A stretch of DNA of 64,000 nucleotides, taken from contig NZ_CP030064.1 of the NCBI RefSeq assembly GCF_003990725.2, positions 1,302,001 to 1,366,000 on the forward strand. Direction: 5' to 3'. Both the position numbers and the translations under genes were made by a program. Shown here in pieces: positions 34,508 to 58,486 of the stretch. The notes beneath the pieces are model-generated. The model made no database searches and was not told the origin of the DNA. It saw only the letters and a program-made list of their open reading frames with translations. Position 1 is the stretch's first letter. Each line of letters begins with the position of its first letter. This DNA comes from Halorubrum sp. PV6. GTDB lineage: Archaea > Halobacteriota > Halobacteria > Halobacteriales > Haloferacaceae.

Positions 34508-35539
34508 TTAGATGTCCTCCGGAATGTGTTCCTGCCGCCGGCGCGCTCGCTCGCGGTTGCCGGCCTTGTCGTAGTGCTTTTCGAGTACGTCCTCCGACGC
34601 GTCGCCGCGATCGCTGATCACGGGTCGAGGCGTTCCGGCCGTCCGGTGCGCCGTGACCGAGCCGGTCCGCACGTGGTGCGGGGCGCGCGACGACGGGCAC
34701 TTGCTCGCCTTTTGCGACGGGATTGCCTCGCACTCGTCGGGATCGCGGTCGTGGGGGCACTCCTCGCCGATGACGCACGGCCGCGTCACGCAGTAGATCC
34801 ACCGCTGGAGGGTGGAGACGCCGGGCCGGCCGCGTTTCGTCGTGATGAGCGGCTTGCGCCCCTGGTCGTCGATCACGTCGATGCGCGGGCCGTCGACGTA
34901 GTCGTCGACGACCTCGGCGACCTGCTCTTTCAGAATCACGTCGCGCTCGCTCGTGGAGCCGTTCTTCAGGGGCGTCAACGGCGGGCGGTGTCGGAACTGG
35001 AGGGCGCGGTCCTCTGAGTCCCAGTCACCGAGGTCGAGCGCGCGGATGCCCCCGCGCCGGGCCGGGACGCGCCACATGAGCAGGAGCGTGACGTGCCGGC
35101 GGGACGCGTACTCGTAGGTGGAGAGGTACTCCAAGATGGCCTTCGTGCGCTCCGAGGAGAGGATGGTGTCGTTCGACTGCTCGTCCTTCGAGGGCGACGG
35201 GACGCGGATACGGTCCGGGAGGGTCTCGGGGACGCCCTTGATGTCGGCGACGCGGTAGAGGAACTGCTTGACCGTCGAGACCTGCCCCTGCATCGTCATC
35301 ATGTTGCAGGGGTCGTGGTCGCCGTTGTCCTCGCGCTTCCAGACGCGCCACTCGTGGACCATCCGGACGTCGACGTCGTTCATGTTGGCGACCTGTTTCC
35401 GGTCTTCGAGCCAGTCGACGAACGTCCCGATGCGGTACGCGTGGTCGCGGAGCGTCGCGTCGGCGAGCTCACCGCGGCGCGCGTCGAGATAGTAGTCGAG
35501 CGCGGCGCTCGGGGTGATGGGATCGAGGTCGTCGCTCAC
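34508..35539 (-). CDS. Tyrosine recombinase/integrase (left end)
   Basis: A 343-residue site-specific recombinase. Residues 1-110 are the SAM-like DNA-binding domain (SAALDYYLDARRGELADATL). The catalytic domain has Arg I in WRVPARRGGIRALDLGDWD, the HxxR box in APHHVRTGSVTAHRTAG and the nucleophile Tyr in LEKHYDKAGNRERARRRQ. This is the common haloarchaeal proviral/plasmid integrase type. A cysteine-rich insert (CVIGEECPHDRDPDECEAI) sits before the HxxR box, as in many halovirus integrases. Its ATG overlaps the upstream 126-residue gene by four bases, so it is the last gene of a leftward operon with the J-domain protein and PadR regulator. Confidence 0.93.
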   Translation of the reverse strand: MSDDLDPITPSAALDYYLDARRGELADATLRDHAYRIGTFVDWLEDRKQVANMNDVDVRMVHEWRVWKREDNGDHDPCNMMTMQGQVSTVKQFLYRVADIKGVPETLPDRIRVPSPSKDEQSNDTILSSERTKAILEYLSTYEYASRRHVTLLLMWRVPARRGGIRALDLGDWDSEDRALQFRHRPPLTPLKNGSTSERDVILKEQVAEVVDDYVDGPRIDVIDDQGRKPLITTKRGRPGVSTLQRWIYCVTRPCVIGEECPHDRDPDECEAIPSQKASKCPSSRAPHHVRTGSVTAHRTAGTPRPVISDRGDASEDVLEKHYDKAGNRERARRRQEHIPEDI

Positions 35540-37514: not shown

Positions 37515-37787
37515 ATGCGTCCCCCTCTTGCCTCATGGATGACACCCGTTGATCGGGATATTCTCGAAAAGTTGGCGAACGGGGACGAAGATGAACTGGC
37601 ACTCACTCCGGCATTGATCTCCGTGAACACAGACTGGGGACACCAAACGATTCGAGAACACGTGTCTGTTTTGCGTGATCATGGCCTGATAGAGTATTAC
37701 GACCAAGAGCGAGGTATATACCAAATCTCTAATCTTGGTCGAAAATATCTCAGGGGAGAGGTTGACCCTAGTGATCTTAAAAATTGA
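37515..37787 (+). CDS. PhiH1 repressor-like winged-helix protein
   Basis: A 90-residue winged-helix protein. MTPVDRDILEKLANGDEDEL is helix 1; ALISVNTDWGHQTIREHVSV and LRDHGLIEYYDQERGIYQIS are the recognition helix and wing; LGRKYLRGEVD is the closing helix. This pattern (MxPPLxxWMTPVDxxILE) is that of the small repressors related to halophage phiH1 repressor found on many haloviruses and proviruses. It probably silences the element and itself through the flanking inverted repeats. It is divergent from the integrase operon. Confidence 0.85.
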   Translation: MRPPLASWMTPVDRDILEKLANGDEDELALTPALISVNTDWGHQTIREHVSVLRDHGLIEYYDQERGIYQISNLGRKYLRGEVDPSDLKN

Positions 37788-37805: not shown

Positions 37806-38468
37806 TCAGTGAAGTGTGAACCTCATTATCACTGGGTGTCTTCTGAACAGGTCTAAGACCCGATCTGGTAGTATTTCAAGCAACCCTTGGCTGTATTTGT
37901 GTGTGTCTTTAATCCGTACAGCAGGATCGTGAATTGCCATATCCTCGTCAGCCTCAACAACTAGGGTGAAAAAGAACTTGGCATTGTCAACACCATCCGC
38001 GCTAATTGTTTTTGTATCTTCATCATAATCTGCCACACTAGGCAGACTCCCGCTTGTGGGATAGATATCTACCCCATTATCTGATTCGAGTTGGAGGCTG
38101 TACGCATTAACATGAGTATCAAATAACGCGGTTATTCTGATTCTAGCCTTGTCCTCTCCGACATTGATACGCCCCCTATAATTAGCTCTCTCCGTGGTAC
38201 TGTTTTGTGGAGTTAGTTGTTTCCAGTCTATTTCTATATTAAATGGGCGAAACATGTAGTAATAATAAAACGCAGGTAAAATAAGAGTTCCAACCGCGGT
38301 GATTGCTAATGGCGTTGAGTAACTAGAAAATATTGAGGAAAATATCCAAAAGACCGATGAAAGTGGGGACGTTATCTTAAAAAGGTTTGAATCTGAGTAG
38401 TGATTCCAAAAACGGCGGGATTTTCTAGCAAAATAACTTCTCTCCCAAAGCGGCGAAGAGTTGTACAT
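37806..38468 (-). CDS. Unknown operon, gene 4: membrane-anchored protein
   Basis: A 220-residue protein. The N-terminal 75 residues contain two hydrophobic spans (ITSPLSSVFWIFSSIFSSYS and PLAITAVGTLILPAFYYYYM) after a basic patch (FARKSRRFW), so the remainder is probably cytoplasmic. Residues 80-220 are beta-rich (YRGRINVGEDKARIRITALF; LQLESDNGVDIYPTSGSLPS). No family recognised. It starts within one base of the stop of the next gene upstream. It is the last gene of a leftward four-gene AT-richer operon and the only one with membrane spans. Confidence 0.75.
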   Translation of the reverse strand: MYNSSPLWERSYFARKSRRFWNHYSDSNLFKITSPLSSVFWIFSSIFSSYSTPLAITAVGTLILPAFYYYYMFRPFNIEIDWKQLTPQNSTTERANYRGRINVGEDKARIRITALFDTHVNAYSLQLESDNGVDIYPTSGSLPSVADYDEDTKTISADGVDNAKFFFTLVVEADEDMAIHDPAVRIKDTHKYSQGLLEILPDRVLDLFRRHPVIMRFTLH

Positions 38469-39103
38469 TATCTCACCGCAGACTCAAAAGTCTGGATTAT
38501 AAATTCGACATCTCCCGATAGATCCGATTCGATATCCAGCTTATCATCAAGGTATCGCACGTCGAATGGTTCAGACTCATGCGTAAATTCGATCTTGGCA
38601 GAATCAACTGGATAGTTGCCTTTGGCATCCTCAAAGTCAACGCTACTATGTGGGTCCTCAACCAGAGCTATCCGTTGAACGCCTCCGAATGGGGTAACTA
38701 CGTCTATTCTCTGAGGATTTCCTGCTAGTACAAATTGCCATATGACCTGTCTATTCAATACTAATCTCTTATTGATTGCTAGGTTCTCATCAACGGACTT
38801 TCTGAGATCCCTTATGACCTGATCGACTTCTTTTGTCCCAGAATCAGAAATAACGAATAATAAACCAGATGATGGACGAATTTCAATTTTGCCAGTAGTT
38901 GGTTGGACTGAACCAAACCCCGAACTAGGGATATACTCAAATTCAATAGACGTGATATCTTGGTCCTCAAACTGCCATCCCGAAAACTCTCTTTCTCTAG
39001 TCTCCGTAGTTTTGGACTGGATAGTGAACGATTCACCAATAGTGTCGTCACTCGGGTCCCAGCTGTCTTCAACACTGATTTCCCGAATTCCCACTATTGG
39101 CAT
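38468..39103 (-). CDS. Unknown operon, gene 3
   Basis: A 211-residue protein of unknown family. The sequence is mostly predicted beta strand (SIEFEYIPSSGFGSVQPTTG; IEIRPSSGLLFVISDSG) around one helix (EVDQVIRDLRKSVDENLAIN) that begins a central segment. No enzyme motif is evident. It shares its stop base with the first base of the membrane-protein gene downstream and is 64 bases after the 359-residue gene, so it belongs to the same transcript. Base composition is clearly richer in A+T than the core genome, suggesting transfer. Confidence 0.72.
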   Translation of the reverse strand: MPIVGIREISVEDSWDPSDDTIGESFTIQSKTTETREREFSGWQFEDQDITSIEFEYIPSSGFGSVQPTTGKIEIRPSSGLLFVISDSGTKEVDQVIRDLRKSVDENLAINKRLVLNRQVIWQFVLAGNPQRIDVVTPFGGVQRIALVEDPHSSVDFEDAKGNYPVDSAKIEFTHESEPFDVRYLDDKLDIESDLSGDVEFIIQTFESAVR

Positions 39104-39167
39104 GTAGTGCGTCTGATTAACACTACGGGTTCATCTGCTATACGATTTTGCCTTGGTTGCGTCATTG

Positions 39168-40247
39168 TCACTCATCCGGTTCGTAGATTTCAAAGTCAAG
39201 ATTGTATGAGTTAGGATCCTCACCTCGGAGATCGGCGTACCGGTGAACCAGTGGCGTAAAGTCAAAATCAAAGTTTGCCCCCATGTCATTTGCTTCGTTG
39301 TGTAAGTCTTCGAAATAACGTGGGTGGGGATATTTCTCTTCAGTCGGTAGGTCTTCCCATGAGCGGTATTCTTCCATTATTTCAGTTAAGAATTTAATAG
39401 AGATAAGCGCACGCTCCAGTTTTGTGGATGGTCCTAAGTCGCGGTTCGCATACAACCTGACTCGGCCATCACCGAATATTTTAGCGTTTACTCTATGCTT
39501 TCCAATCGCAAAGTCGCCTTCTAACATGGCAACGTCCATATCTTTCAGGATACCTGCTAAGATGGGCAATGATTGCGAAATATCGTCGGAATCGTCCACC
39601 TCTGCGTCCCGACCGAAGTCAGCAGGATCTCCTCCAGTGATTTCAGTTGAATTCAATTCGACAATTTCTAAGCCGGTCGATAGATCTTCCGAGTGCTTGT
39701 CCTTGAGTACGAGCCAAAGTAAGAACTCTTCGTCAAAATCGTGATATGTAAAACTAACTTTATTTTTGAGAGAACTATTAACAGTGGGTGCTACATCGTC
39801 AACCCTCGTCTGCGCACCTTGTACAAATATTGTCTTCGGGTAGTCCCAATATAGGAACACGCTGCGAGTCTTCCGGGGAAAAGCATCCACATATCGAGGT
39901 TCTCCATCACGATATTCCACGGCCTCAATGGGCTCATTCGGATATTCCTCGTACCTGTATTCTATCCCTAAAATATCATCAGCCACTTCGCGTAGGTCGA
40001 ATTGTACATTCTCTTCCTCAGCAAACTCTTCGAGATTAAGTTCAATTGAGCCGGACCCTTGTTGGCCGGGATCTCCTTGTTCAAAGTCGGGAAGTTGATC
40101 AAGAATCTGGTCTCGTAGCCCCTCAGGATCGTCTCGTTTTACGTCGGTTCGTATAATACTATTAAATACTAATTCACCACCGCCATACTCAAATGTCTCT
40201 TCTTCCTCTTCCTGTTCCTTCGCTTCGGTATCTGTCTCAGTGCTCAT
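39168..40247 (-). CDS. Unknown operon, gene 2
   Basis: A 359-residue protein of unknown family. It begins with an acidic tail (TEAKEQEEEEETFEYGGGEL), then a region with VRTDVKRDDP-like charged strands, a middle part with KTRSVFLYWDYPKTIFVQGA and VSFTYHDFDEEFLLWLVLKD, and a second half containing MLEGDFAIGKHRVNAKIFGD and LERALISIKFLTEIMEEYRS. No nuclease, ATPase or transferase motif is seen. It follows gene 1 by six bases and precedes gene 3 by 64, so the operon is tight. The high number of aromatic residues is a feature of the whole operon. Confidence 0.72.
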   Translation of the reverse strand: MSTETDTEAKEQEEEEETFEYGGGELVFNSIIRTDVKRDDPEGLRDQILDQLPDFEQGDPGQQGSGSIELNLEEFAEEENVQFDLREVADDILGIEYRYEEYPNEPIEAVEYRDGEPRYVDAFPRKTRSVFLYWDYPKTIFVQGAQTRVDDVAPTVNSSLKNKVSFTYHDFDEEFLLWLVLKDKHSEDLSTGLEIVELNSTEITGGDPADFGRDAEVDDSDDISQSLPILAGILKDMDVAMLEGDFAIGKHRVNAKIFGDGRVRLYANRDLGPSTKLERALISIKFLTEIMEEYRSWEDLPTEEKYPHPRYFEDLHNEANDMGANFDFDFTPLVHRYADLRGEDPNSYNLDFEIYEPDE

Positions 40248-40253
40248 TTTTAT

Positions 40254-40940
40254 TCACTCCATGAACGAGGTTAGGTCGTTGAGAATAAACTCTGCGTAGT
40301 CTTCCGATTCAAAGTTCGACGGTTGATATATTTCTACGTAGCCGCTTTCGCTCATCGTGGTCTTGATAATCTGCCCGTCTCTCTCAAATTGGAGCCCTAA
40401 TTGATTCAGTTGGGAGCGCTCCAATACCTCGCCAATCTCATCATCGGAAAATACATTCTCTCCGTACACAACACCTTTCTCCGCATTTCCAACATTCCCG
40501 TAGAATCCTACCTGCCAAGGGTCGACGTTCTCAGCTGTATAGTACCTCTCAGCATACTCATTCAGATCTATCGTCGATCTATTCAAGCCATTTACACTGT
40601 GTTCGTAGGACAGAATGTCGAACACAAATGTCCCACGACCGCTACCAACAGCCACGAACTCATCGGGTACTAAAACGAAATCGGTGTATTTCCCCTTTTT
40701 TAACGGTTCATCTTGTACGCTAATATCACCAGTGTCTGGGTCAATGTGTATGTTCGTATCGTCTTCCACCTCTTGTGTTGCCGCTTGACCGCTAATTACC
40801 TCTCTACCACCCGTGGTGTGGTTTGTATTCCTAACTTGGAATGAATGTGTGAACTCTGTTCCATCCTTCTCAAACGTATTATGGAACGACGAGACATCGT
40901 CTAAGCTTCCGTCGATTAGACCAACCACGCCAGCTTTCAT
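40254..40940 (-). CDS. Unknown operon, gene 1
   Basis: A 228-residue protein starting MKAGVVGLIDGSLDDVSSFH. Interesting stretches are FHNTFEKDGTEFTHSFQVRN, KKGKYTDFVLVPDEFVAVGS and GRGTFVFDILSYEHSVNGLN, and near the C-terminus LGLQFERDGQIIKTTMSESG. No known family; the two final segments look like a sensor or regulatory fold. The ATG 40940 is preferred over one 29 codons upstream because a CATATTATTTG box lies just before it on this strand and the upstream residues resemble no halophilic protein. It leads the four-gene leftward operon. Confidence 0.72.
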   Translation of the reverse strand: MKAGVVGLIDGSLDDVSSFHNTFEKDGTEFTHSFQVRNTNHTTGGREVISGQAATQEVEDDTNIHIDPDTGDISVQDEPLKKGKYTDFVLVPDEFVAVGSGRGTFVFDILSYEHSVNGLNRSTIDLNEYAERYYTAENVDPWQVGFYGNVGNAEKGVVYGENVFSDDEIGEVLERSQLNQLGLQFERDGQIIKTTMSESGYVEIYQPSNFESEDYAEFILNDLTSFME

Positions 40941-41134
40941 ACCTATCAAATAATATGTTCGACTAATAATTCTTTCCCCCGAAGACACACTTAGTAAAAT
41001 TTGAAATAAACAGATAGAATCCCACATTGCGAGACCGACTAGCCATCGTTCTCTTTTTTAGGTGACACACTTGGGCCGAATTTAATAGGCTAATGCAGGA
41101 AACCCTCAAGAGACCACTCTCACAAAACCCACCC

Positions 41135-41830
41135 ATGAGCGACGTGGTCTACGCGATTCGGATTTCTCATCTCGAATACTCCGGGCTCAAAATTATGGAC
41201 ATCAAGATCGGCAAGTCCACCGATATCGAGAACACCCTCCGCCAGTACAGCCGGGGCAACCGCGACATCGAACTGCTCGACATGTGGACGCCGAACCCCG
41301 ACAAGACCCTCTCCACCGCCGAGCGCGGCGTCCACGCGGTCGCCGAGCGCTACGCCTACGACAAACAGAGCGAGAAGTTCGTCTTCCTCCAGGGTGCGTA
41401 CCAGGAGTTCGCCGAGACGGTCAACATGCTCCTCCAAAACGTCAGTCGCGAGGACCTCGCTGCGGCGTCGGCGTCGAGCGAGTCCGACGACGTCGACGAC
41501 TACACCGGTACGACGCCCTCGGTAATCAAGATCCTCGGCGAGACGCACGACGTCGGCAGCTGGGCGGACGCGCTGACAGTGGGGGTCGCGGCGATCCTTC
41601 GCGACGTGGATGATCAGGAGCGTATTACCGAGATCGACGGTCGGACGCGAAGCTACTTTGTGGAGGAGGGCCGGCAGTCTGATCTGGTCTCGCCTCGGCG
41701 GATTCCGGATACTAATCTGTACGTGGAGACCAACTTCTCCGCGAACGACTGCGTTCGGAAGATTGAGCAGGTGATGGCGAAGTACGGGTACGACAGGGCT
41801 GAACTGGAGATATTTATTGAAGAATCTTGA
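41135..41830 (+). CDS. Putative GIY-YIG/T5orf172-like nuclease-domain protein
   Basis: A 231-residue protein of two domains. Residues 1-105 (MSDVVYAIRISHLEYSGLKI; DIKIGKSTDIENTLRQYSRG; AERGVHAVAERYAYDKQSEK) follow the order of a GIY-YIG-like Meiothermus/T5orf172 domain: a first strand, IKIGKS in place of VKIGxT, then the arginine helix. The usual first GIY triad is not obvious, so catalytic activity is uncertain. Residues 130-231 (VIKILGETHDVGSWADALTV; RIPDTNLYVETNFSANDCVR) are a second domain which I have seen only as a C-terminal partner of nuclease-like proteins; this is from memory. A TTTAATAGG box lies about 50 bases before. A broken copy is at 45000-45307. Confidence 0.65.
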   Translation: MSDVVYAIRISHLEYSGLKIMDIKIGKSTDIENTLRQYSRGNRDIELLDMWTPNPDKTLSTAERGVHAVAERYAYDKQSEKFVFLQGAYQEFAETVNMLLQNVSREDLAAASASSESDDVDDYTGTTPSVIKILGETHDVGSWADALTVGVAAILRDVDDQERITEIDGRTRSYFVEEGRQSDLVSPRRIPDTNLYVETNFSANDCVRKIEQVMAKYGYDRAELEIFIEES

Positions 41831-42574: not shown

Positions 42575-42790
42575 TCAAACTCCCTCCGGATCGAAGTTCA
42601 TCACTAACCGCTCTTTCGCGTCCTTCGCCTCGCCGCGTTTCCCGCTGTTGATGAACCGCTTCTCGTCGCGGTCGAGCACGTACACGTCCTCGAACCTCTC
42701 CGGCAGGTCCTCGTACGAACAGATACAGTCACCCTCCAGCCCCGCCAGCCCGGCGACGAGCGCCTCATGGCTGATTCTGTTCACAAGGGA
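42575..42790 (-). pseudogene. 3' fragment of a Dam-type adenine methyltransferase gene
   Basis: The translated end (ALVAGLAGLEGDCICSYEDL; DVYVLDRDEKRFINSGKRGE; AKDAKERLVMNF) is nearly identical to the last 70 residues of the intact Dam at 55713-56504. The catalytic DPPY and SAM motifs are missing, and upstream (about 42790 on) the frame joins unrelated sequence. GC is high, like the intact gene. It is a relic of another copy, probably from an earlier element. Confidence 0.9.
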
Positions 42791-43085
42791 GACCGCCAGC
42801 ACAGTCACGACCAGACCGCCGGAAACGACCTGGACTGTAACGCTCGCGAAGCGATGTTGAGGTGTAGCCCGTAGCAAGAAAGTAACTGAAGAGGTTGCCG
42901 CTGAGGTGGCTGGCGCTTGCGTGGAAGTACGCGGCCGTAAATACCGTGTACCACTGTGGATCGCTTGGTGCGAGTGCGAGTTGCTGTTGGAGGGCCATCG
43001 GAGTTAAAAAATAAACTATACACAAGAGAGCTGGTACTAACAGAATAAAGACTAAATCAACATTTGGTCTGTTCGGTTTTTCCAT
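42765..43085 (-). pseudogene. Truncated rhomboid-type membrane protease gene
   Basis: The N-terminal 85 residues match the rhomboid pattern: a first span (LVFILLVPALLCIVYFLTPM), then WYTVFTAAYFHASASHLSGN followed by LFSYFLATGYTS, the His/Asn region of the second span. The catalytic Ser (GxSG) and His segments are absent; after about residue 85 the frame runs into the Dam fragment. It is the front half of a rhomboid intramembrane protease gene cut by the join with the Dam relic. Confidence 0.65.
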
Positions 43086-43306: not shown

Positions 43307-44790
43307 TTGACATCCTCCCGCGCCTGAAGACGCGGGAATCCCACGGCACCGCACCGCTGAGTTGGGATATTACGGTTCGCGGTTAGCAACCTGTTCTCGT
43401 GGGGCGAAAATACCCTCACTACGGTCGAACAGGTGAACCGCTGGCTGTGCCAACCAGCCGTTATCCCTATCACCGCCATCCGTGGCGAGACTCGGGAGTA
43501 CCTTTTGCCGAATATTCTCCGCACCGTTAACGTCCGCGTTCGCCACCGTGTCGCACTCCTCACAGACGTACAGTCCGCGTTCAACGCGCTGATTCTTGTC
43601 TGTGTGACCACACGCTGAACACGACTTCGACGTGTCGCGTTCCGATTCTAACTCCACGTCGATGCCTTCCGCTTCCGCCTTGTAGTCGAGAAGCGTTGTG
43701 AAGCGGTCGAACGCCCACCCGTGCAAGTCGAGGTTGCCGTGGTCGCCCCAATTACGAGATTCGCCACTCTCATCATCCTCACGAATGCCGCCAAGGTCAC
43801 CAACGACAAGCGTCCCGACACCTCGTTCGACACACTGTTCCACGATCGCTTTCGAGAGGGAGTGTAAGAAGTGTGTCCGGCGACCAGTCCACTTCCGGTC
43901 AAGACGAGTCGCCTCAAGGGACGAAGAATCGTCGCACTTGGCCTTCTTTTTTGTGAAGTAGTATTCGTCCTCTTTGAGTGCGCCACCGGGATACAACACC
44001 GACTCGCCACCGAACGAGACGGCGGCGAAGTTGCAAATCCCGAGGTCAACACCGGCCACCCCGTCACCCGGCGGTTCCGGGTCAATCGTGGTGCGACAGA
44101 CGAATTGCAGTCGCCATTTGTCGCGTTTGTGGACGGCTCGAACCTGTTGAATATCCCACTCGGTTAGGTCAACATCCGGGCGAGTCTGATACTCACAGAG
44201 TATGAAGTCTGAACGGTGTTCTTTGAGGTTGCGACCTTTCGAGAGGCGAACGCGATTGAACTGTGCATCGTGCTTGAAGCCAGCCGATTTGAACGACACG
44301 GTTGAACGTGGGTGGGAATCGCCGCTTTTGCGATAGCCGGGCGGTCGGGCACGGTCGTCGCCGTTCTGACGCTTTCCGAACCAGCCGTTGAACGCTTCAG
44401 CGAGTTCTTCGAGAACGCGCTGACTGGATTGAGAATGTAAGTCCGTGTAGCGTTCGTGGCCCTTGAGTTCGGCTTTGAGTTCCCCGTCATCGGGAATCTC
44501 GCCCGTCTCGTCCCACTGTTCTTGTGCGTAGTAGCGACCGACGTTCCAGAGTTTTGAGGCGGCCCATCCGAGTTGGTCGAGGTAGTCACGAACCTGTTGC
44601 TGGTTCGTGATCGTGGCCTCGAAGGTTCGGATGGTTCGACTCATTTCTGGCTTCATAACTGGTTATGTGTGCCGTTTTGTTAATAGTGCCGGTTAGCGTG
44701 GAATATCCGGTTATGCCATCGACGGTGGTTGGTGCAGAGTATTGTCGGATTCATCCTGCGCCTAAAGGCGCAGGTATTCTCCTTGGTTCT
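43307..44790 (-). mobile_element. IS200/IS605-family element carrying only tnpB (IS1341 type)
   Basis: The ends are marked by hairpins: CCCGCG-8-CGCGGG (43317-43336) just beyond the tnpB 3' side, in the sequence context TTGACATCCTCCCG typical of haloarchaeal IS200/IS605 right ends, and the perfect stem CCTGCGCC-TAAA-GGCGCAGG (44755-44774) on the other side. No tnpA is present, so movement needs a transposase in trans. The strand that carries tnpB should also encode the omega RNA, overlapping the tnpB 3' end and the 43317-43336 hairpin, with guide from bases below about 43306. The exact outer limits are estimated. Confidence 0.85.
43370..44656 (-). CDS. tnpB: TnpB RNA-guided endonuclease (IS1341-type)
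   Basis: A 428-residue TnpB. The N-terminal part (TFEATITNQQQVRDYLDQLG; YYAQEQWDETGEI) is the WED/REC-like region. The RuvC domain has RuvC-I Asp in GVAGVDLGICNFAAV, the second motif in GTLVVGDLGGIREDDES, the zinc ribbon CSACGHTDKNQRVERGLYVC then EEC, and RuvC-III Asp in NADVNGAENIRQKV. In canonical TnpB the second motif has Glu before Asp-Leu; here Gly stands there, as I recall for other haloarchaeal TnpBs. TnpB cuts target DNA guided by omega RNA and helps retain the transposon. An ATG four codons later (MSRTIRTFEATI) is an equally good start. Confidence 0.92.
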   Translation of the reverse strand: MKPEMSRTIRTFEATITNQQQVRDYLDQLGWAASKLWNVGRYYAQEQWDETGEIPDDGELKAELKGHERYTDLHSQSSQRVLEELAEAFNGWFGKRQNGDDRARPPGYRKSGDSHPRSTVSFKSAGFKHDAQFNRVRLSKGRNLKEHRSDFILCEYQTRPDVDLTEWDIQQVRAVHKRDKWRLQFVCRTTIDPEPPGDGVAGVDLGICNFAAVSFGGESVLYPGGALKEDEYYFTKKKAKCDDSSSLEATRLDRKWTGRRTHFLHSLSKAIVEQCVERGVGTLVVGDLGGIREDDESGESRNWGDHGNLDLHGWAFDRFTTLLDYKAEAEGIDVELESERDTSKSCSACGHTDKNQRVERGLYVCEECDTVANADVNGAENIRQKVLPSLATDGGDRDNGWLAQPAVHLFDRSEGIFAPREQVANREP

Positions 44791-44936: not shown

Positions 44937-44999
44937 ACAGACACTTGACTTGTTATCCGGTAAAACTATTTTGCCAAGTCTAGGACATCACTCTTGATT

Positions 45000-45307
45000 A
45001 ACGAGACCCTCTACGAGACTCGTGACGTCGAACTGCCCGACATGTGGACGCCGAACCCCGACAAGACCCTCTCCACTGCCGAGCACGGTGTCCACGTGGT
45101 CGCCGAGCGATACGCCTACGACAAAACAGAGCGAGAAGTTTGTCTTCCTTCAGAGCACGTAACAAGAGTTCGTTGGGACGGTCAACATCCTCTTCCGAAA
45201 CGTCAGTCGGGGGACCTCGCCGTGGAGTCGGCGTTGAGCGAGTCTGACGATGTCTGTGGGCTCCGACTCGTACGTATCCTCCACGGCGACGACATACGCG
45301 ACGAGTA
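45000..45307 (+). pseudogene. Frameshifted partial copy of the 41135-41830 gene
   Basis: The segment coding RDVELPDMWTPNPDKTLSTA then HVVAERYAYDK is almost identical to codons about 42-85 of the gene at 41135. After GACAAA one extra A (near 45124) shifts the frame; beyond it the nucleotide match continues (GTCAACATCCTCTTCCGAAA; ACGTCAGTCGGGGGACCTCG) in another frame. The N-terminus and the C-terminal domain are missing. It is a decayed duplicate; the two copies bracket the TnpB region. Confidence 0.88.
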
Positions 45308-45308
45308 G

Positions 45309-45564: not shown

Positions 45565-47568
45565 ATGAGCACAAGTGGTAATGAGGATTCCGCTGGGCTA
45601 TGGTGGTTTGAAGAAGTTCCCTGCGGTCGCTCCCGAAAACAGGGATTAATACAGAAGAAGACGTTCAGTCGAGATTTGGAGACTTTTGTCCGAGAAATTC
45701 TCCAAAATTCGACGGACGCAAGAGAGGATCCAAACGATCCCGTTAAAGTCTCGTTTCGTCTCCATGAGTTTGACGACCGCACTGTGTTCGAAGAGGCGTT
45801 GCGGTGGAACAAGCTGTATGATCACGTAAAGGCCGCTGGGAAGGATCAAGATGGACACGGACTCACAGATTACGTCGAATACCTTGAGGACGGAGGGACG
45901 TTCAGGATTCTGATTGTAGAAGAGGAGAACGCCAAAGGGATTCAAGGAAACGAGGAGGACCAGGACTCTGACTACGCAGCGCTAATACGTGACCCAGGTG
46001 CGAGTAACAAGGGAGGGAGTACAGGCGGTCGTCACGGGTTGGGAAGTACACTCCTCTGGGTTGCCTCTGGCTTTCAAACTGTCCTCTTCAATTCTACTTT
46101 GGCAAAGGAAATGGAAGGCCAGACCTCTCCTCGATTGGTCGGGCGGTGTTTCATTCCGACACACGAACTATCAGACGGGGAGTGCTACGCGAACGATGGA
46201 TGGTTCGGCGCCCAGTCGGGAATGGAGCGTGATGAGCTCCAACGGCCAGAGTCTATCTGGGGTGACGCTGCTAGTGACTTGGCTGACAATCTTGAGATGG
46301 GCCGGCCAGACAGTTACGGGACCACCATCATGATTCCGGGGTTCCGTGACCCGGCCGACCCAGCCATGGACGACCAACCCTCGCCGCAGGAGCTGTGTCG
46401 GGAGTTCGAAAAATCAACTGCGGACTACTTTTGGCCGGCAATCCGAGCGGGTGATCTAGAAGTCGACATCAACATGTGTGGTCACAGCTCAAGACTCACG
46501 AAAGATACTATCAAAGACCACGAGAGAATCGCTCCGTTCGTCACCTGCTACGATCAGATACGTGAGGCCCCAGAATCGTTCAAAGGACCGGGAACGGTAG
46601 CGAAGACCAACGAAGAGTATAGCATCGTCAGCAAGAAGGAAGACGAGTGTGAGGAGAACGAAGAGTACCCTACACCGTCTGACGGGCACGTAACTGTCGC
46701 CGCCCGGAAAGCTAATCCGAGCGATACCGAGGGACCAGCGTCTAAGCGAATCGGTGAGATAGCCATGTTCAGAGGTCCGGGCATGGTCGTGAAGTACAAG
46801 TCAGGCCACTACCTCGGCCACTCTGGAAAGTACCACGCTCTCCTCGCAGCAGGGAAAGCGCGCACTTTACCAGGGGAGTCCCACGATTCTACCGACGAAG
46901 CAATTGACGACTTTCTGGCGATGGCGGAGCCGCCGATGCATGACCGTTGGTACGGGGAAAAGAATGACGAGCTGAGCGCGAAGTACGAATATGGCGCGAA
47001 AGGGCCGGCTGACGACATCTCAACTAAGATTCTCCGCAACGGTCTCTCGAAGATACTGTACAACCAATCACGCCAAGGGGGGTCGCTGACACGACCTGGT
47101 CGCGACATACTGCCCAAAACGCGTTCGGATCTTGCGAAGGACGGGGGTACAAATCCTCCGACACCGACCATCCCACCGCTGTTTGACTGGGATATTAAGG
47201 ACGAGATCGTTGGAAACAGTTGGAATTTTACTGGCAGTATCGGACCGAATACCGAACGGAAACAGATCGCAGGAAATCCAATCGACGGATGGGAAACGAC
47301 TTTCGAAATCGTCGCACTCTTTGAGGACAACAGAGAGGCTGATACGGTCGTCATTGAAGACGTGGACGCCGAGGTGGAGAGTGGGAGTGGTTCGACCACA
47401 ACGGAAACCCTAGAACACGGTGAGAAAGGACGTATAGAGGTCCAAGGCGACGTCAAGAATGTAGAGTACAGTATCGAAGCTCGACTCCCTGGACGTCGGG
47501 CGCGGCTTGGAGATGTGTCGAAGACCAGACTCAAGCTGACGGATGGTTCCGTGGAGGTGAGTAGCTGA
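45565..47568 (+). CDS. Cassette 1 GHKL (Hsp90/MutL/MORC-like) ATPase
   Basis: A 667-residue protein. The N-terminal GHKL ATP-binding fold has the N box FVREILQNSTDA (Glu44, Asn48), a G1-like LIVEEENAKGIQG in which the usual adenine-contacting Asp is Glu120, and the lid GGRHGLGSTLLW (154-165). A transducer-like second domain has IAMFRGPGMVVKYK and AEPPMHDRWYGEKNDE. The C-terminal 180 residues are beta-rich (GNSWNFTGSIGPNTERKQIA). There is no histidine-kinase H box. It is a paralog of 51967-53859 with the same blocks in the same order. It heads a three-gene operon. GHKL ATPases of the MORC/MutL type are known beside restriction-modification genes; the role here is inferred. The start at 45565 (MSTSGNEDSAGLWW) is preferred to one eight codons upstream. 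Confidence 0.85.
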   Translation: MSTSGNEDSAGLWWFEEVPCGRSRKQGLIQKKTFSRDLETFVREILQNSTDAREDPNDPVKVSFRLHEFDDRTVFEEALRWNKLYDHVKAAGKDQDGHGLTDYVEYLEDGGTFRILIVEEENAKGIQGNEEDQDSDYAALIRDPGASNKGGSTGGRHGLGSTLLWVASGFQTVLFNSTLAKEMEGQTSPRLVGRCFIPTHELSDGECYANDGWFGAQSGMERDELQRPESIWGDAASDLADNLEMGRPDSYGTTIMIPGFRDPADPAMDDQPSPQELCREFEKSTADYFWPAIRAGDLEVDINMCGHSSRLTKDTIKDHERIAPFVTCYDQIREAPESFKGPGTVAKTNEEYSIVSKKEDECEENEEYPTPSDGHVTVAARKANPSDTEGPASKRIGEIAMFRGPGMVVKYKSGHYLGHSGKYHALLAAGKARTLPGESHDSTDEAIDDFLAMAEPPMHDRWYGEKNDELSAKYEYGAKGPADDISTKILRNGLSKILYNQSRQGGSLTRPGRDILPKTRSDLAKDGGTNPPTPTIPPLFDWDIKDEIVGNSWNFTGSIGPNTERKQIAGNPIDGWETTFEIVALFEDNREADTVVIEDVDAEVESGSGSTTTETLEHGEKGRIEVQGDVKNVEYSIEARLPGRRARLGDVSKTRLKLTDGSVEVSS

Positions 47569-47570
47569 AC

Positions 47571-48647
47571 ATGTCCAGCACGATCCAACTAAACCGACCG
47601 CTCAAGTACGAGACATTTCCTCACCACTGTGCGCTTGGCGAACTTGATTTCTGGATTGAAGAGTATGCGGTTGATGGCGACGAGGCTATCGAGCCGGAAG
47701 ACGACCGACGACTTGATCTCACCGAGTACCAAGGTTGGTCAGAGATTGAGTTCACCCTCTGTGTAAACGTCCCAAGTTCGCTCCTTAACGAAGTCCTTCC
47801 CGAGATCGGAGAAAGTACCGCGGCTGACCCCCCGGACAAAGGGCCCGCGGACGTCGTCATAGCTGGTCACTGTGTGAGTACCTACACGCGAGCAGGGACA
47901 GTCCTGAACGATGGACACGAAGTCGGTGCTGAAACGGTAGACGACACGCTCACAATCTCCGCAGACAATATAGAGGATAGACTCGTTCTCCGTCCCTACC
48001 TCCTCCGGTCTAAGCCTCTCAAATCAAAAACTGAATCGTCACTCGGGTTGGCACCGAGCCATGACTATGCGACCGAACCTGGAACCCTCCTTTCTGACGG
48101 TAGTGAGTGTCGGATCGAAATCACCGAGGAAGATCCGGGGAGCGACGATGTGCTACAAGTTGAGCGGACATCATTTGAGAGAGAGAATGAAGACGACGAA
48201 ACGCCGTTCCCGCCAGCCGATCGGATGTACTACCTAGATCTGAAACGAGATCCAAACAATCCAGTCCTTTATTTCAATGAGGATCATGACCAGGTGGTTG
48301 ATATTGTGTGGAACGGAGATAGCAATTACGACGATCTCACGGCCGAGTTGATCTGGGATCAAGTAATGACGCCCGTATGGACCAGAATGGTCCAGGTCGC
48401 TGCCGACGAGTATAATTCCGACTCAAAAGAGTGGACACCAGAGTGGCAACCAGCGGTATTCGAAATGTTGAGTGAGTACCTGTATGAAGGAGAAGATAAG
48501 TCTCCACAGAAAGCCGCAGAGTCGCTACAACAGGAGCTAGAAGAAAGTCCCATGGCTGCGACAGAACGGATTGAACAGGCGGTCCAGGGGCTACTAAATC
48601 CTGCTGAACAGGTCAATAACCACGCAAAGAGGGTGGGTGGCCGATGA
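47571..48647 (+). CDS. Cassette 1 second protein, unknown family
   Basis: A 358-residue protein starting two bases after the ATPase stop. The first 230 residues are beta-rich (FPHHCALGELDFWIEEYAVD; ADVVIAGHCVSTYTRAGTV; RLVLRPYLLRSK), the rest helical (LIWDQVMTPVWTRMVQVAAD; QPAVFEMLSEYLYEG). The block DRMYYLDLKRDPNNPVLYFN aligns with EKRLYHLDFRKVDSPKLWIN in the cassette 2 counterpart, so these are paralogs. No known enzyme motif. The tight spacing and its conserved place between ATPase and third gene in both cassettes imply a structural or DNA-binding subunit of one complex. Confidence 0.8.
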   Translation: MSSTIQLNRPLKYETFPHHCALGELDFWIEEYAVDGDEAIEPEDDRRLDLTEYQGWSEIEFTLCVNVPSSLLNEVLPEIGESTAADPPDKGPADVVIAGHCVSTYTRAGTVLNDGHEVGAETVDDTLTISADNIEDRLVLRPYLLRSKPLKSKTESSLGLAPSHDYATEPGTLLSDGSECRIEITEEDPGSDDVLQVERTSFERENEDDETPFPPADRMYYLDLKRDPNNPVLYFNEDHDQVVDIVWNGDSNYDDLTAELIWDQVMTPVWTRMVQVAADEYNSDSKEWTPEWQPAVFEMLSEYLYEGEDKSPQKAAESLQQELEESPMAATERIEQAVQGLLNPAEQVNNHAKRVGGR

Positions 48648-49441
48648 GCGTTTGGGATCCTAGCAGTGATCTTGAGGATGGACAGGAGCTGGTTAGACTG
48701 GCGGATGGGGCACAGAGTCTGCTCAGTAAGTACGATGAGTTTCTACGTGGCGATTACGACAGCATCCCTCAGACGGAACTTGAGCCACATATCCAATCGA
48801 CTGGGCTGACAGCCGACTTAGCCACGCTGGAAGATGAACTGAGGGCCATCGCGTCGGATACGACCCCCGAAACCGCGCAAGCAGACCCGGAGTCGGCTGT
48901 CGTTGTTCATCGCTGTGTTGATCTAACCCGGGCGGAGGCGTCCGATTCGGGGCTCTGGAGTGCGTTTGCGATATTATACTTCCCATGGTTTGTTAACCAT
49001 CGATGGGCGTTCAACAGCGTTTCGGCGATGAAAGAGAAGTTCTGGACACAGGCTAGGGCTCTTGACGGGAAAGCCAGTACTTTTGAGCGAGCCTGGTGGA
49101 TAGCTGAGCTGACGTGTGAGGAGAATGATGATGGGAGCGTTAATTACGAACCCACCCGGCGCGCACTCAGCAGGCGACGATTCTCGCTTCTAGTTTTCGA
49201 CACACCCATGGCCCGATATGAACCGGCAGTGAGGGCTCTACTTGATGTGTTGTACGACGAAGCAGAGGACGACGAAGAGGGAAGTTTGGTAGACAACGAC
49301 GTCATTGACGAGACAATCAAGCGTTTCAGGAAGTCTGGCTCGGTCTTCCCCTATGAGGGGCAACGAAAGTCCGATCTGAAAAAGACCCTTCGTAGTATCC
49401 GCAGTGAGGTAGAGGAGTCAACCGCAGCCACTGATTCGTAG
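48644..49441 (+). CDS. Cassette 1 third protein, DUF6339-like
   Basis: A 265-residue helical protein overlapping the second gene by four bases (ATGA). The core SGLWSAFAILYFPWFVNHRW then TFERAWWIAELTCEENDD aligns with SGVWHYLATVRYPDFVRHRW and ALHRLWWIAELTREGDDY of cassette 2. This RxWWIAELT block and overall length fit my recollection of DUF6339, a family seen in bacterial operons with GHKL ATPases and methyltransferases; that is memory, not a search. Function is unknown; it contains no evident nuclease motif. A 236-base gap without genes separates it from the convergent methyltransferase-like gene. Confidence 0.78.
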   Translation: MSVWDPSSDLEDGQELVRLADGAQSLLSKYDEFLRGDYDSIPQTELEPHIQSTGLTADLATLEDELRAIASDTTPETAQADPESAVVVHRCVDLTRAEASDSGLWSAFAILYFPWFVNHRWAFNSVSAMKEKFWTQARALDGKASTFERAWWIAELTCEENDDGSVNYEPTRRALSRRRFSLLVFDTPMARYEPAVRALLDVLYDEAEDDEEGSLVDNDVIDETIKRFRKSGSVFPYEGQRKSDLKKTLRSIRSEVEESTAATDS

Positions 49442-51966: not shown

Positions 51967-53859
51967 ATGGATATGAATAATATTGCGCAAGAAGCGAAGT
52001 GGCACTTCTACGACGGCGGACAGAGTGCGCCTCGATTCGGTGGCGACCCTACTAAACACGCGGTTGACCATAATACAGAGAGCTTCGTCCGAGAGGTCCT
52101 GCAAAACTCGAATGACCAAGCTCTGCCGAACGATATGCCGGTTGAGGTGACGTTCCGCTTGGTGGAGCTTTCTGGTGACGAACTTCATGAGTTTCTTGAA
52201 GCGATCAATTGGGAGAGCGGGCTACGAGACCGTATTGGTGCCGTAGCTAGGTCCGATAGAGGTCGAGGGTTCCAACAATTTCAGGAGCAGTTGGAGGATG
52301 AAGATCCCTCTCTTCGTATACTCATCGTTGAAGATAGAAACACAACTGGACTCACTGGAAACTGGGATGAGGACTCGAACTACGCAGCGCTCGTCCGGGA
52401 CGAGCTTTACAGTCAGAAACAGGACGAGACAGCCGGTGGGTCGTATGGCCTCGGCAAGTCGGTTCTCTGGACCTTCTCGGGGGCATCTACTGTCGTATTC
52501 AATTCGTATCTAAGCGAACCTTCCGAACGGGGATTCCGTCAACGGCTCATTGCCCGGACAAAGCTTCCGACGCACAGCTTGGATGAAGACGGTACGGAGT
52601 ACCAAGGAGCAGGTTGGCTCTGTACTATCGACAACTCGGAGGAAGACCCCAAGCCTCGCTCGTTGTGGGGCTCAACGGCTGAATCACTAGCCGAGCGGCT
52701 CGGTGTTAACCGGCCAACCACTCCGGGTACTAGCGCGATGGTCGTAGGGTTCCGCGACCCAGCACGAGATCGCACGCCGAGCCTCAAGAGTCTCGGACAA
52801 GAGCTCGTTGACGCCGCCGCGAAGTATTTCTGGCCCGCAATGTACCGGAACGATCTCGTTGTAAACGTGGAGGTGGGTTCTGAGACGACAGAGGTTGACG
52901 TAGACAATCACTCGGCAGTACAGCCGTTTGTTGACGCCTACGCGAACCGATACAACGGCGAGACGGGACTTGAGACCCCCGGCGATGTTGCGGGACGCGA
53001 CATCAAGGTAGAACTCCCGAAGAGGGACGACGGAACACAGAGTGAGAGCGGGCCTGTCAGGCTCGCAGCTCGCCTAGCTTCGCCTGTTGACGATCCCACC
53101 CTACGGAACCACGTCGCTATGTTCCGGGGCTCGGGAATGGTAGTGAAGTACTACGACCAGAGTCGGGTGTCTTTCGGGGACCGGAACTTTTTCGCAGTCT
53201 TAGCGGCTGGTACTGCCCGGTCAACTGGTGCTCCCCGAAGATCGGACGAGGAGATTGACCGATTCCTCCGATTCGCCGAACCGCCCGAACATGACGAGTG
53301 GCGCTCAACAGAGAACCTGAAAGAGCAATATATGCAGGGTTATCGGAAGGCAATCCTAAATCTTGAGGCAGACATCCGGGAGGAGCTTCGGAACCTCGTC
53401 TCACGAGGTGGACGAGGAGATCGTAATTTACCTGAGAACGTCTTGAAGAAGTTTCCAATACACGGGCAGGGGCGTCGTTCCAGCTCACCGGCCAACTCAA
53501 AATCATTTGAACTGGACGGTACGGCGTTCTTCGAACGGGACCGCTGGCGTTTCAGTGGGAGTGTGGAACCCGAGGCGGACGACCATTCCGGCTGGACGGC
53601 CCAGATATCTCTTACTGGAGTCGGTGAAGACGGGACGAAGTATCGGCAAGTACCGCTAGAATCGGCCGAGGTTGACGTTGAGGGGGTAGACGTCGTTGAG
53701 CAAGACGGAGCGATGGTTCTGAGAGCTTCGCCGGGAGTAGGAAGGGTAGAGTTTCGTGGAGCGTCTCGTTCAATCGGTCACGCGGACTTCTTCGACGGTT
53801 CAGTCGGTGAGACTCAACTGGAAGTTGACGCTGAGGTCCGACTTGGGGGTGACGAGTGA
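51967..53859 (+). CDS. Cassette 2 GHKL (Hsp90/MutL/MORC-like) ATPase
   Basis: A 630-residue paralog of the 45565-47568 protein. GHKL motifs are better preserved than in cassette 1: N box FVREVLQNSNDQ (Glu43, Asn47), G1-like LIVEDRNTTGLTG with Asp123, and lid GGSYGLGKSVLW (157-168) with Lys164. The transducer-like part has VAMFRGSGMVVKYYDQSRVS and FAEPPEHDEWRSTENLKEQY, then a beta-rich C-terminal domain (GTAFFERDRWRFSGSVEPEA). Paralogs share the order of every block. ATP binding is expected to close the dimer as in MutL/Hsp90; the effector step is unknown. It overlaps the second gene by four bases. MDMNNIAQEAKWHFYDGG is the chosen N-terminus; the second Met is possible. Confidence 0.87.
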   Translation: MDMNNIAQEAKWHFYDGGQSAPRFGGDPTKHAVDHNTESFVREVLQNSNDQALPNDMPVEVTFRLVELSGDELHEFLEAINWESGLRDRIGAVARSDRGRGFQQFQEQLEDEDPSLRILIVEDRNTTGLTGNWDEDSNYAALVRDELYSQKQDETAGGSYGLGKSVLWTFSGASTVVFNSYLSEPSERGFRQRLIARTKLPTHSLDEDGTEYQGAGWLCTIDNSEEDPKPRSLWGSTAESLAERLGVNRPTTPGTSAMVVGFRDPARDRTPSLKSLGQELVDAAAKYFWPAMYRNDLVVNVEVGSETTEVDVDNHSAVQPFVDAYANRYNGETGLETPGDVAGRDIKVELPKRDDGTQSESGPVRLAARLASPVDDPTLRNHVAMFRGSGMVVKYYDQSRVSFGDRNFFAVLAAGTARSTGAPRRSDEEIDRFLRFAEPPEHDEWRSTENLKEQYMQGYRKAILNLEADIREELRNLVSRGGRGDRNLPENVLKKFPIHGQGRRSSSPANSKSFELDGTAFFERDRWRFSGSVEPEADDHSGWTAQISLTGVGEDGTKYRQVPLESAEVDVEGVDVVEQDGAMVLRASPGVGRVEFRGASRSIGHADFFDGSVGETQLEVDAEVRLGGDE

Positions 53860-54884
53860 TGGTTGACTCTAAGAGTCAAAAGCTGCGTCAGACTGCTCTC
53901 CCCTACCCGTACCGCGATAATGGGCTCTCACTTCAAATAGAGGAATACCAGTTAGAAGACGAGCAACCGGTTGAGCTTGATCAGGAACAAGACAATTTAA
54001 CAGTTGACCTTGCGATCAACGAGAGCGATCCTTGGGAGCACGCTACGCTCCGTGGGGAGGTAAATCTCCCCGAAGACGTAGTACAATCCGTGTATCCGCC
54101 GGATGAACGTTCCTCTCCTCCTGGGAAACTCTATGTGGCAGTTCGGTGCCCAGAAACCATTTACAGAGACCGGGTAGACGTGGGTACCAGTGAAACAGAA
54201 GGAGGTCTTGACCCAGGTGTCCATGAAGTTGAGATTTCGCTAGAGAGCAACGATCTCCGGGGTAAGGTTCAGCTACTCCCGTTTCTTGTTCGTTCTTTTG
54301 AAGGCGATAGTGACGGTCAGTTTGCGACGACTCCAAACGTCAGGCTAGCGAGTGGTGAACCGTGGACAGTTGTCGTTGATGAAGAGGAAGAGAGCGGGAG
54401 TCGTCTTATTGAGGGTGAAGAGGCCGAGTTTAGTGAGCATGATCACCTCCCCGGTGAGAAGCGCCTATACCACCTAGACTTCCGGAAGGTCGACAGCCCA
54501 AAACTTTGGATTAACAGCGACCACAGCCGTATAGTAGACATACTCCACGCAAATGGCTCAGTCGGTGCGGAAGCTCGAATGCGCGATGTTGTGCTCGATC
54601 AGATTCAGCAAGGTGTCTGGTCCCAGCTTGTAGTGCGAGCAATTTCGGATGTTGATGATGAGGGCGAGCCCCGACACGACTGGGAAAGAGCAGTACTCAA
54701 TATCTTCGCTCGAGACTTGACTGACGAGGAAGATGTCACGCAGGCGTCGATTCAACTTCGAGAAGAACTCAACGATCCAGAGGGGGTCGCTGTTCTAATG
54801 GAACGACTGGACGGAGCGATTCAGGACTATATTGATCCGCGAGATCAGCTGATCAACCTCATTGAGGAAGGGCTTCAAATATAA
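53856..54884 (+). CDS. Cassette 2 second protein, unknown family
   Basis: A 342-residue counterpart of 47571-48647. Beta-rich first two-thirds (NGLSLQIEEYQLEDEQPVEL; GKLYVAVRCPETIYRDRVDV; LRGKVQLLPFLVRSFEGD) and helical end (VVLDQIQQGVWSQLVVRAIS). The shared central block KRLYHLDFRKVDSPKLWIN then SDHSRIVDILHANG links the paralogs. No catalytic motif. ATGATGG at the start overlaps the ATPase stop (53856-53859), so translation is coupled. The equal gene order in both cassettes supports a fixed stoichiometric complex. Confidence 0.8.
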   Translation: MMVDSKSQKLRQTALPYPYRDNGLSLQIEEYQLEDEQPVELDQEQDNLTVDLAINESDPWEHATLRGEVNLPEDVVQSVYPPDERSSPPGKLYVAVRCPETIYRDRVDVGTSETEGGLDPGVHEVEISLESNDLRGKVQLLPFLVRSFEGDSDGQFATTPNVRLASGEPWTVVVDEEEESGSRLIEGEEAEFSEHDHLPGEKRLYHLDFRKVDSPKLWINSDHSRIVDILHANGSVGAEARMRDVVLDQIQQGVWSQLVVRAISDVDDEGEPRHDWERAVLNIFARDLTDEEDVTQASIQLREELNDPEGVAVLMERLDGAIQDYIDPRDQLINLIEEGLQI

Positions 54885-55579
54885 TGAGCGAACAACCATT
54901 ACGCCGACTGACTGCTGATGGACGACGATTGATCGGGGAAGAGTTCCTCAAGGGAACCAAGGGACAGGTGATCGCGGGTGACGAGCTCGCAGAGTATCTT
55001 GAACTTGAGCCCTCGGGCGAGCAGGTCCAGTTGAGCCAGCTGGATGATGAATTAGAATCAATAGTTAGCTCGTACGATCGGTTCGACACGTCAATTGACG
55101 CCGCGGCGGCACCTGCGGTCAGAGCGTCGCTGAATATGTCTCGGCGTGTTGCGGCAGACTCTGGAGTTTGGCACTATCTTGCGACTGTCCGTTACCCGGA
55201 CTTCGTTCGTCATCGATGGGAGTTCACTAGCAAGAAGGCGATGACAGAGAAGTTCCTCGGTGCGGGAACGGACATTTACTCAAACGCACTCCACCGTCTC
55301 TGGTGGATTGCTGAACTCACTCGCGAGGGTGACGACTACACACTGACTGAGGAGGTTCTCTCAAACCAGACACTGGCGAACAAAATATTCGACCGGTGGT
55401 TCGCACGCTATGAACCAGCTGCGAAGGTCTGTTCTGAGAAACTGATCGGCGAACCTTCGGATGTCGTAGACGAATCGACTCGTCGGTTCAACCACGCACT
55501 CACGAACCTCCAATTAGAGGGGCTTGACGAAGATGACATAGAGCGAGTGATGGACCGTATCCTTGATGACATAAGGTGA
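54884..55579 (+). CDS. Cassette 2 third protein, DUF6339-like
   Basis: A 231-residue counterpart of 48644-49441, starting on the last base of the previous stop (TAATG). The helical core VWHYLATVRYPDFVRHRWEF then HRLWWIAELTREGDDYTLTE and FDRWFARYEPAAKVCSEKLI matches the cassette 1 protein. Family resemblance to DUF6339 is from memory. It lacks the longer acidic loop of its paralog. No nuclease motif was found. It ends the three-gene run; 133 bases without genes follow before the convergent Dam gene. Confidence 0.78.
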   Translation: MSEQPLRRLTADGRRLIGEEFLKGTKGQVIAGDELAEYLELEPSGEQVQLSQLDDELESIVSSYDRFDTSIDAAAAPAVRASLNMSRRVAADSGVWHYLATVRYPDFVRHRWEFTSKKAMTEKFLGAGTDIYSNALHRLWWIAELTREGDDYTLTEEVLSNQTLANKIFDRWFARYEPAAKVCSEKLIGEPSDVVDESTRRFNHALTNLQLEGLDEDDIERVMDRILDDIR

Positions 55580-55712: not shown

Positions 55713-56504
55713 TTAGATCATCTCCGGCTTGAAGTTCATCACCAACCGCTCTTTCGCGTCCTTCGCCGATCCGCGCTTCCCGCTGTTGATGAACCGCTTC
55801 TCGTCGCGGTCGATCACGTACACGTCCTCGAACGTTCCCGGAAGGTCCTCGTACGAGCAGATCCAGTCGCCCTCCAGTCCCGCGAGCCCGTCGACGAGCG
55901 CCTCGTGGTCGATCGTGTTCACGAGGTAGTAGTCCTCGTAGCCGACGTACGGCGGGTCGCAGTAGAACACGGTGTCCTCGCTGTCGTACTTCTCGAAGAC
56001 GTCCGCCCAGTCGAGGTTCTCGACGACCACGTCCCCGAACCGCTCGGCGAACTCGTCGAGGCGGTCGACCTTGTTCGCGTACGACAGCGCCCGACTCGAC
56101 ACCTTCGAGGTCCCGAACCCGGCTGGGCCGTCGTACTTCCCGCCCCATTGGGTGTACCGGAGGTAGAAGAACTGACCGGCACGCTCGATCGGGTCGCTCG
56201 GCCGGTAGCCGTGGAAGAGCTTGTGCGCCCACTCGCCGTGGAGCTCACGCGAGTACGGCGTCCGGTCGAGCCACGCGACCAGTTCCTCGCAGCGGTCGCG
56301 AAGGACCTCGAAGAACTGGACGAGGTCGCCGTCGCGGTCGTTGTACACTTCGACCGTGCTCGTGTCCGGGTCCTTGTTCGCGAGCACGCCAGCGGCGCCC
56401 CCGAACACTTCTACGAAGCAGGTGTGCTCCGGGACCTGATCGAGGATCCACGACGCGAAGCGACTCTTCCCACCGGGGTAGGGGAAAACGGCGTCCGCCA
56501 TCAC
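55713..56504 (-). CDS. dam: Dam-type DNA adenine-N6 methyltransferase (D12 class)
   Basis: A 263-residue alpha-class N6-adenine methyltransferase. Motif X is FPYPGGKSRFASWIL, motif I EVFGGAAGVLANKD, and motif IV DTVFYCDPPYVGYEDYY (DPPY 183-186). The late block DVYVIDRDEKRFINSGKRGS is shared almost exactly with the 42575-42790 fragment. D12-class enzymes methylate adenine at short sites such as GATC; the site here is not deducible. Such orphan genes are common on haloarchaeal proviruses, protecting element DNA. The ATG overlaps the stop of the upstream small gene by four bases. Confidence 0.93.
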   Translation of the reverse strand: MMADAVFPYPGGKSRFASWILDQVPEHTCFVEVFGGAAGVLANKDPDTSTVEVYNDRDGDLVQFFEVLRDRCEELVAWLDRTPYSRELHGEWAHKLFHGYRPSDPIERAGQFFYLRYTQWGGKYDGPAGFGTSKVSSRALSYANKVDRLDEFAERFGDVVVENLDWADVFEKYDSEDTVFYCDPPYVGYEDYYLVNTIDHEALVDGLAGLEGDWICSYEDLPGTFEDVYVIDRDEKRFINSGKRGSAKDAKERLVMNFKPEMI

Positions 56505-58325: not shown

Positions 58326-58361
58326 CATAAGCCGACCCCCGAGTGTTCCGGACGGTTCCGG
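58326..58361 (-). promoter_or_regulatory. Promoter and shared GTTCCG element C (orc gene)
   Basis: Plus-strand CATAAG (58326-58331; CTTATG on the minus strand) then 13 bases then GTTCCGGACGGTTCCGG (58345-58361). Box to orc ATG (58300) is 25 bases. The layout matches elements A and B almost to the base. The element also lies about 125 bases before the restriction-modification methyltransferase on the other strand. Confidence 0.75.
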
Positions 58362-58453
58362 ATGATCCTAGTCGAAGGAGACAGTCGATACCTCCTGGTT
58401 TTAGAGCCAAACACAGATCCTTGAGACCGGTGACAGAAGCCGTAGAGCCAATG

Positions 58454-58461
58454 ATTAAATA
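58454..58461 (+). promoter_or_regulatory. TATA box of the type II methyltransferase gene
   Basis: ATTAAATA, 25-32 bases before the ATG at 58487. This position indicates that the earlier in-frame starts at 58343 and 58451 are not used. Confidence 0.65.
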
Positions 58462-58486
58462 CGGTACGGAGCCAGATTCGATACAG

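Follow-up and report, generated by a model that had tools for sequence, protein, structure and literature searches.

The RexAB pairs and the RdgC-histone operons are the nearest described systems to the locus studied here. The crystal structure of lambda RexA has an RdgC fold, in part common to IML3/CHL4; the protein is DNA-binding and acts together with RexB, a membrane protein (PMC11077077). The RexAB-type systems compared in this study are lambda RexA-RexB, Sbash gp30/31, CarolAnn gp44/43 and RexABpp of P. putida. Both parts are required in those of CarolAnn and P. putida, where the membrane partner has been proposed or shown to be the effector that suppresses growth (PMC6426606, PMC12894663); in P. 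putida, the RexA-like protein triggers this effector (PMC12894663). A count from 2026 puts the described RexAB-like systems at only five, and the named ones are phage- or prophage-borne in bacteria (PMC12894663). How RexA triggers its membrane partner still lacks a mechanism after 70 years. In the RdgC-histone operons of Halobacteria and Bacillus, an RdgC-like protein and a transmembrane protein share one operon (PMC11390915), while Kiwa (KwaA-KwaB) is an antiphage system of a membrane protein and a DNA-binding protein (PMC12904381).

Here we analysed four genes (g1-g4) of Halorubrum sp. PV6, located in a chromosomal window of 64,000 nucleotides (G000:C1:1302001-1366000, the whole stretch of DNA that was analysed). 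As in RexAB, a cytoplasmic protein with a predicted RdgC fold (g2) adjoins a membrane protein (g4) and the genes are borne by mobile elements; with 280-390 aa, g2 proteins also span the lengths of RexA (279 aa) and CarolAnn gp44 (370 aa). Unlike RexAB, the g2-g3-g4 set is archaeal, has an extra core gene (g3) and an optional one (g1), and its g4 has two membrane helices and an Ig-like domain instead of the four membrane spans of RexB, with no sequence similarity detected. Because the four-span partner and the matching sequences are absent, the cassette follows a RexAB-like plan and is not a RexAB member proper. With the RdgC-histone operons it shares the combination of an RdgC-like and a membrane protein, a conserved operon and, partly, the archaeal class; those operons, however, begin with a histone, and their membrane protein has by description a winged helix and several domains, whereas the first gene of our cassettes is g1 or g2, with no histone-like first gene noticed in the neighbourhood maps (drawn without histone profiles). 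No description of g2-g3-g4 was found in open-licence papers. We propose, with confidence a little below even, that g2-g3-g4 may be a RexAB-like system with which haloarchaeal mobile elements bring about exclusion or abortive infection.

Operon layout and promoter

Four open reading frames were confirmed on the minus strand at 37809-40940 of the window, and they encode proteins of 228 (g1, 40257-40940), 359 (g2, 39171-40247), 211 (g3, 38471-39103) and 220 residues (g4, 37809-38468), separated by 6, 64 and -1 bases; an earlier note on this DNA had given the same sizes and spacings. The A+T richness which it had remarked on is also real: g1-g4 have a G+C content of 43-48%, most of the island outside them 49-56% and the chromosome on either side 66-73%. 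The longest frame of g1 begins at 41027, but we place the start at the ATG at 40940, because homologues begin there and a TATA-like box (AATTATTA, 40964-40971, minus strand), read from the sequence, lies at about -27 from it. The position of this box would suit transcription of the operon from a haloarchaeal promoter of the leaderless type, and similar AT-rich boxes are found at the same distance upstream in homologous loci. In many g1-bearing loci, the g1-g2 gap contains an AT-rich box of its own.

Three-gene core and accessory gene

Of 391 Halobacteria genomes searched with profiles, 34 contain g2, whose presence is therefore patchy, and 27 contain g3; neighbourhood maps were drawn for 36 fetched loci and the window. 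The order g2-g3-g4 is fixed in 29 loci on haloarchaeal chromosomes and plasmids. In all 29, g3 follows directly 3' of g2 with a gap of 32-95 nt, and the g3-g4 gap is -4 to +11 nt in 27, while the remaining two have an unassigned frame 3 nt 3' of g3. As order and spacings repeat in many genomes, the operon cannot be put down to chance open frames. By tblastn, plasmids of Haladaptatus halobius and Halobaculum roseum were also seen to carry homologues of g2, each with g3 and then a g4-like gene behind it in the same order. Some copies of g2 are nearly identical between different haloarchaeal families, and the cassette thus moves between these families; two g2 paralogues often lie within one locus. 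In other Haloferacaceae, the g2 profile gave weak matches (E 0.006-0.5), mostly to one short common stretch. No relatives came up when viral contigs were scanned with g1 and g2 patterns, or when phage records were searched by tblastn with a related g2.

The first gene behaves differently. It stands 5' of g2 in only 10 of the 29 g2-g3 loci, at a gap of 50-73 nt in nine of them and of 6 nt in the window, and along the g2 tree its association switches five times or more. Its family was detected in 37 of 194 genomes. Of the g1 loci outside cassettes, 19 were fetched, and g1 had no g2, g3 or g4 beside it in any. Since g1 is optional, mostly stand-alone and variable in its association on the g2 tree, we consider g2-g3-g4 as the core and g1 as accessory; membership of g1 as a fixed component is ruled out. 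The suggestion of the earlier note that the four genes form a fixed cassette therefore has to be dropped in favour of a three-gene core, and the check that it proposed, for the same four genes in other islands, found g2-g3-g4 in 29 loci, with g1 in only 10 of them.

None of g1-g4 belongs to a family in Pfam, NCBIfam or PADLOC, in line with what had been said of them from the sequence, except that g1 matches a viral-protein family (phrog_18169, E=4e-31) with no assigned function. Members of this family are common in haloarchaea, mostly alone (examples besides 40257-40940 of the window are G000:C1:303536-304192 and locus L006), and a weak match is present in Methanocaldococcus fervens tailed virus 1. 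For the three core proteins, no viral structural or plasmid-maintenance homologues were found.

Predicted folds of the core proteins

An AlphaFold model of g2, built from an alignment of 44 sequences, reached a mean pLDDT of 88.9 and a pTM of 0.86. Its top Foldseek match in the PDB was E. coli RdgC (2owl_A, E=1.9e-8, probability 1.00), with TM-scores of 0.46/0.53 over 331 columns and both domains matched, and the top matches among viral models were phage RdgC-type proteins. The model thus predicts for g2 an RdgC fold, as reported for lambda RexA. RexA itself was without a match to g2 among the best 50 Foldseek (PDB) matches listed, so the fold link between g2 and RexA goes through RdgC. Unlike g2, E. 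coli RdgC (PF04381) is a nucleoid/recombination protein that stands alone and has no membrane partner, and the likeness in predicted fold over both domains is not accompanied by a sequence match: PF04381 has no match in the genome, Pfam (PF04381 and RexA/DUF4747 included) has none in the 44 g2 members, and profile comparison (hhalign) of g2 with RdgC and RexA remained at noise level, by which sequence homology of g2 to either protein was rejected. For RexA such a test has little power, because CarolAnn gp44 and RexA, compared as single sequences, were also negative in it. The fold would make g2 a probable DNA-binding sensor, although g2 proteins are on the whole acidic and conserve few basic residues, which leaves DNA binding unproven.

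Ranks 4-6 of the same PDB search were the kinetochore proteins Iml3/CENP-L, and together with the presence of the cassette on haloarchaeal plasmids, they could suggest a module that anchors or segregates DNA at the membrane through an Iml3/CENP-L-like relative of the RdgC fold. We regard this as very improbable, since the RdgC match is much stronger, the cassette is patchy and often chromosomal, and no consistent ParA or rep partner was seen.

In the g4 model (pLDDT 83), an N-terminal helix precedes two membrane helices (about 28-46 and 48-73) and a beta-sandwich which matches Ig-like domains in Foldseek; the model agrees with the two membrane spans and cytoplasmic-type beta domain noticed earlier in the last gene. 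Across the g4 family, basic residues occur on both outer sides of the helical hairpin and are mostly scarce in the loop; from this positive-inside pattern, the protein is predicted to be N-in/C-in with a cytoplasmic beta domain. No profile similarity of g4 to RexB or gp43 was detected. CBASS effectors of the Cap15 type have a 2TM-beta architecture. Although g4 likewise continues from two N-terminal membrane helices into a beta domain, its domain matches Ig-like sandwiches and not a beta-barrel, and the operon is without a recognised nucleotidyltransferase.

The soluble protein g3 is without a known family, and five residues are invariant in its alignment (Q48, R76, S79, Q204 and E207). Comparison of the g2 and g3 profiles by hhalign gave a collinear alignment of 114 columns, from which one could guess that g3 is a second, half RdgC domain; this idea was rejected, because 14% of column-shuffled profiles score equally high and the comparison of g3 with RdgC is at noise level.

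Variant architectures

Members of a shorter g2 clade (280-300 aa) are directly followed by g4, without g3; there are seven such g2-g4 pairs, one of them from a longer g2 paralogue. Other g2 paralogues are followed by an SLFN_AlbA_2 protein, of which two members matched PF04326 at E=1e-11 and 2e-14. Six of the seven loci of this kind (L076, L077, L081, L092, L070 and L090) additionally encode a small protein with a membrane helix at its C-terminus. The g2-SLFN_AlbA_2 genes form a second conserved architecture, in which the small membrane-protein gene is convergent in some loci, with an overlap of a few bases. A distant g2 (E=2e-6, 2e-8) is the last operon gene in an archaeon of the same phylum and another class, and the product of the gene before it has two membrane helices at its N-terminus. 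The recurring theme across these architectures is the pairing of g2 with a membrane protein. In two genomes, a protein of about 2,150 aa is encoded directly 3' of g4 (L074:820-7278 and L075:11052-17483); a Pfam scan of the L075 copy gave no match.

Proposed function

The haloarchaeal set corresponds to the two parts of RexAB plus g3, and on this ground we model g2 as the part that senses, g3 as the one that couples and g4 as the one that acts. With its RdgC/RexA fold, g2 would probably be a dimer clasping DNA, and it may sense virus DNA or an intermediate of replication or recombination. Once activated, it would engage g4 via g3 as a coupler, upon which the g4 helices might assemble into oligomers that de-energise the membrane, make it leaky or arrest growth, and infection would be stopped; g1 may be an accessory or modulator in a subset of cassettes. 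The analysis itself establishes the gene order, the predicted folds of g2 and g4, the pairing of g2 with membrane proteins, the mobility and the island setting; DNA binding and sensing by g2, contacts among g2, g3 and g4, an effect on the membrane and protection from viruses are inferred. The match of g2 to RdgC across both domains, the near-fixed spacing, the predicted N-in/C-in topology of g4, the patchy spread, the near-identical copies across families and the integrase and HTH neighbours all argue for the model, while it counts against it that g4 is not RexB-like, that g3 is unexplained and that a sequence-level link of g2 to RdgC or RexA is missing.

The main rivals are reverse signalling, as in Kiwa, and a membrane-tethered modulator of recombination or replication resembling RdgC, which is taken up with the neighbouring genes below. 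In the Kiwa-like case, g4 would sense the attack at the membrane and g2 would be the DNA-binding effector, blocking replication or transcription of the entering genome. The parts are the same (a membrane protein and a protein with a DNA-binding fold), and the cytoplasmic beta domain of g4 could serve for docking. However, the window proteins have no PADLOC match, Kiwa included, DUF4868 matched none of the 44 g2 members, and KwaB is not among the top Foldseek matches listed for g2. With a different gene set and no KwaA/KwaB (DUF4868) profile match in PADLOC or Pfam, the cassette differs from Kiwa, and we find signalling in this direction unlikely.

The RexAB-like reading can be extended to the variants. 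Somewhat more tentatively still, we suggest that they may represent a widespread and so far undescribed archaeal immune family in haloarchaea and at least one further archaeal class, a counterpart of lambda RexAB that joins a DNA sensor of RdgC fold to exchangeable membrane modules (g3-g4, only g4, or SLFN_AlbA_2 with a transmembrane protein), with g1 as an option. If this is true, the RexAB plan would extend beyond bacteria, in archaeal forms that have one fixed additional subunit and exchange their membrane partners, and their many natural variants could be used to find out what is sensed by the DNA-binding half. Three conserved haloarchaeal gene families absent from the libraries searched also receive testable identities.

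Island setting and neighbouring genes

As the earlier note had it, the operon lies beside an integrase module (34.5-36.9 kb of the window, with the tyrosine integrase of the element at 34511-35539, minus strand) and a nuclease-like gene (41093-41827, with weak T5orf172 and SeqA C-terminal matches). A small HTH regulator (37515-37787, plus strand) converges on g4. The small HTH family occurs within 6 kb of 10 of 27 cassettes and the integrase family within 6 kb of five of them, versus none of 20 control regions for both, and Orc1/Cdc6-type genes are also among the cassette neighbours. No convincing pair of att repeats was found around the island.

Such neighbours would also suit a modulator of recombination or replication, in which g2 would coat DNA and restrain RadA/RecA as RdgC does, and g3-g4 would tether the DNA to the membrane, for the stability of the element or as a lysogeny switch. 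Integrase, HTH and Orc1/Cdc6-type genes are adjacent, g2 has the predicted RdgC fold, RdgC is carried by many phages, and RexA also tunes the lambda switch (PMC11077077). On the other hand, the conserved link is to membrane proteins and not to replication genes, many loci are without nearby integrase or replication genes, and two g2 paralogues often share a locus, and so we hold this role to be improbable.

For the RexAB-like reading, the defence content of the surroundings was considered. Relatives adjoin SduA, DrmD or type IIG enzymes. The count of PADLOC families (139 for 136 neighbour proteins versus 99 for 138 control proteins, with a DISARM locus among the controls) is not clearly higher than in control regions, and the link to defence islands is therefore suggestive only. 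An abortive-infection type of cassette with one membrane effector, as first suggested from the sequence, is supported by the predicted RdgC fold, the membrane pairing, the mobility and the island, but not by a fixed four-gene set or by PADLOC enrichment.

The island in the window is itself rich in restriction and defence-candidate genes. Two similar three-gene sets are located at 45568-49438 and 51967-55579, and the first and third proteins of both match the PADLOC candidates PDC-M33A and PDC-M33C (E 1e-10 to 1e-28), while their middle proteins have no matches. At 58343-60984, a C5-methyltransferase adjoins a type II restriction-enzyme match (E=9e-32), which is a probable restriction-modification pair. 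The T5orf172/SeqA-C gene has a degraded copy at 44994-45308, 3.8 kb away, and a TnpB-like gene (43370-44656) is flanked by the two. An adenine-type methyltransferase fragment (42584-42877) is a duplicate from the intact copy at 55716-56504, to which it is 88% identical over 208 nt.
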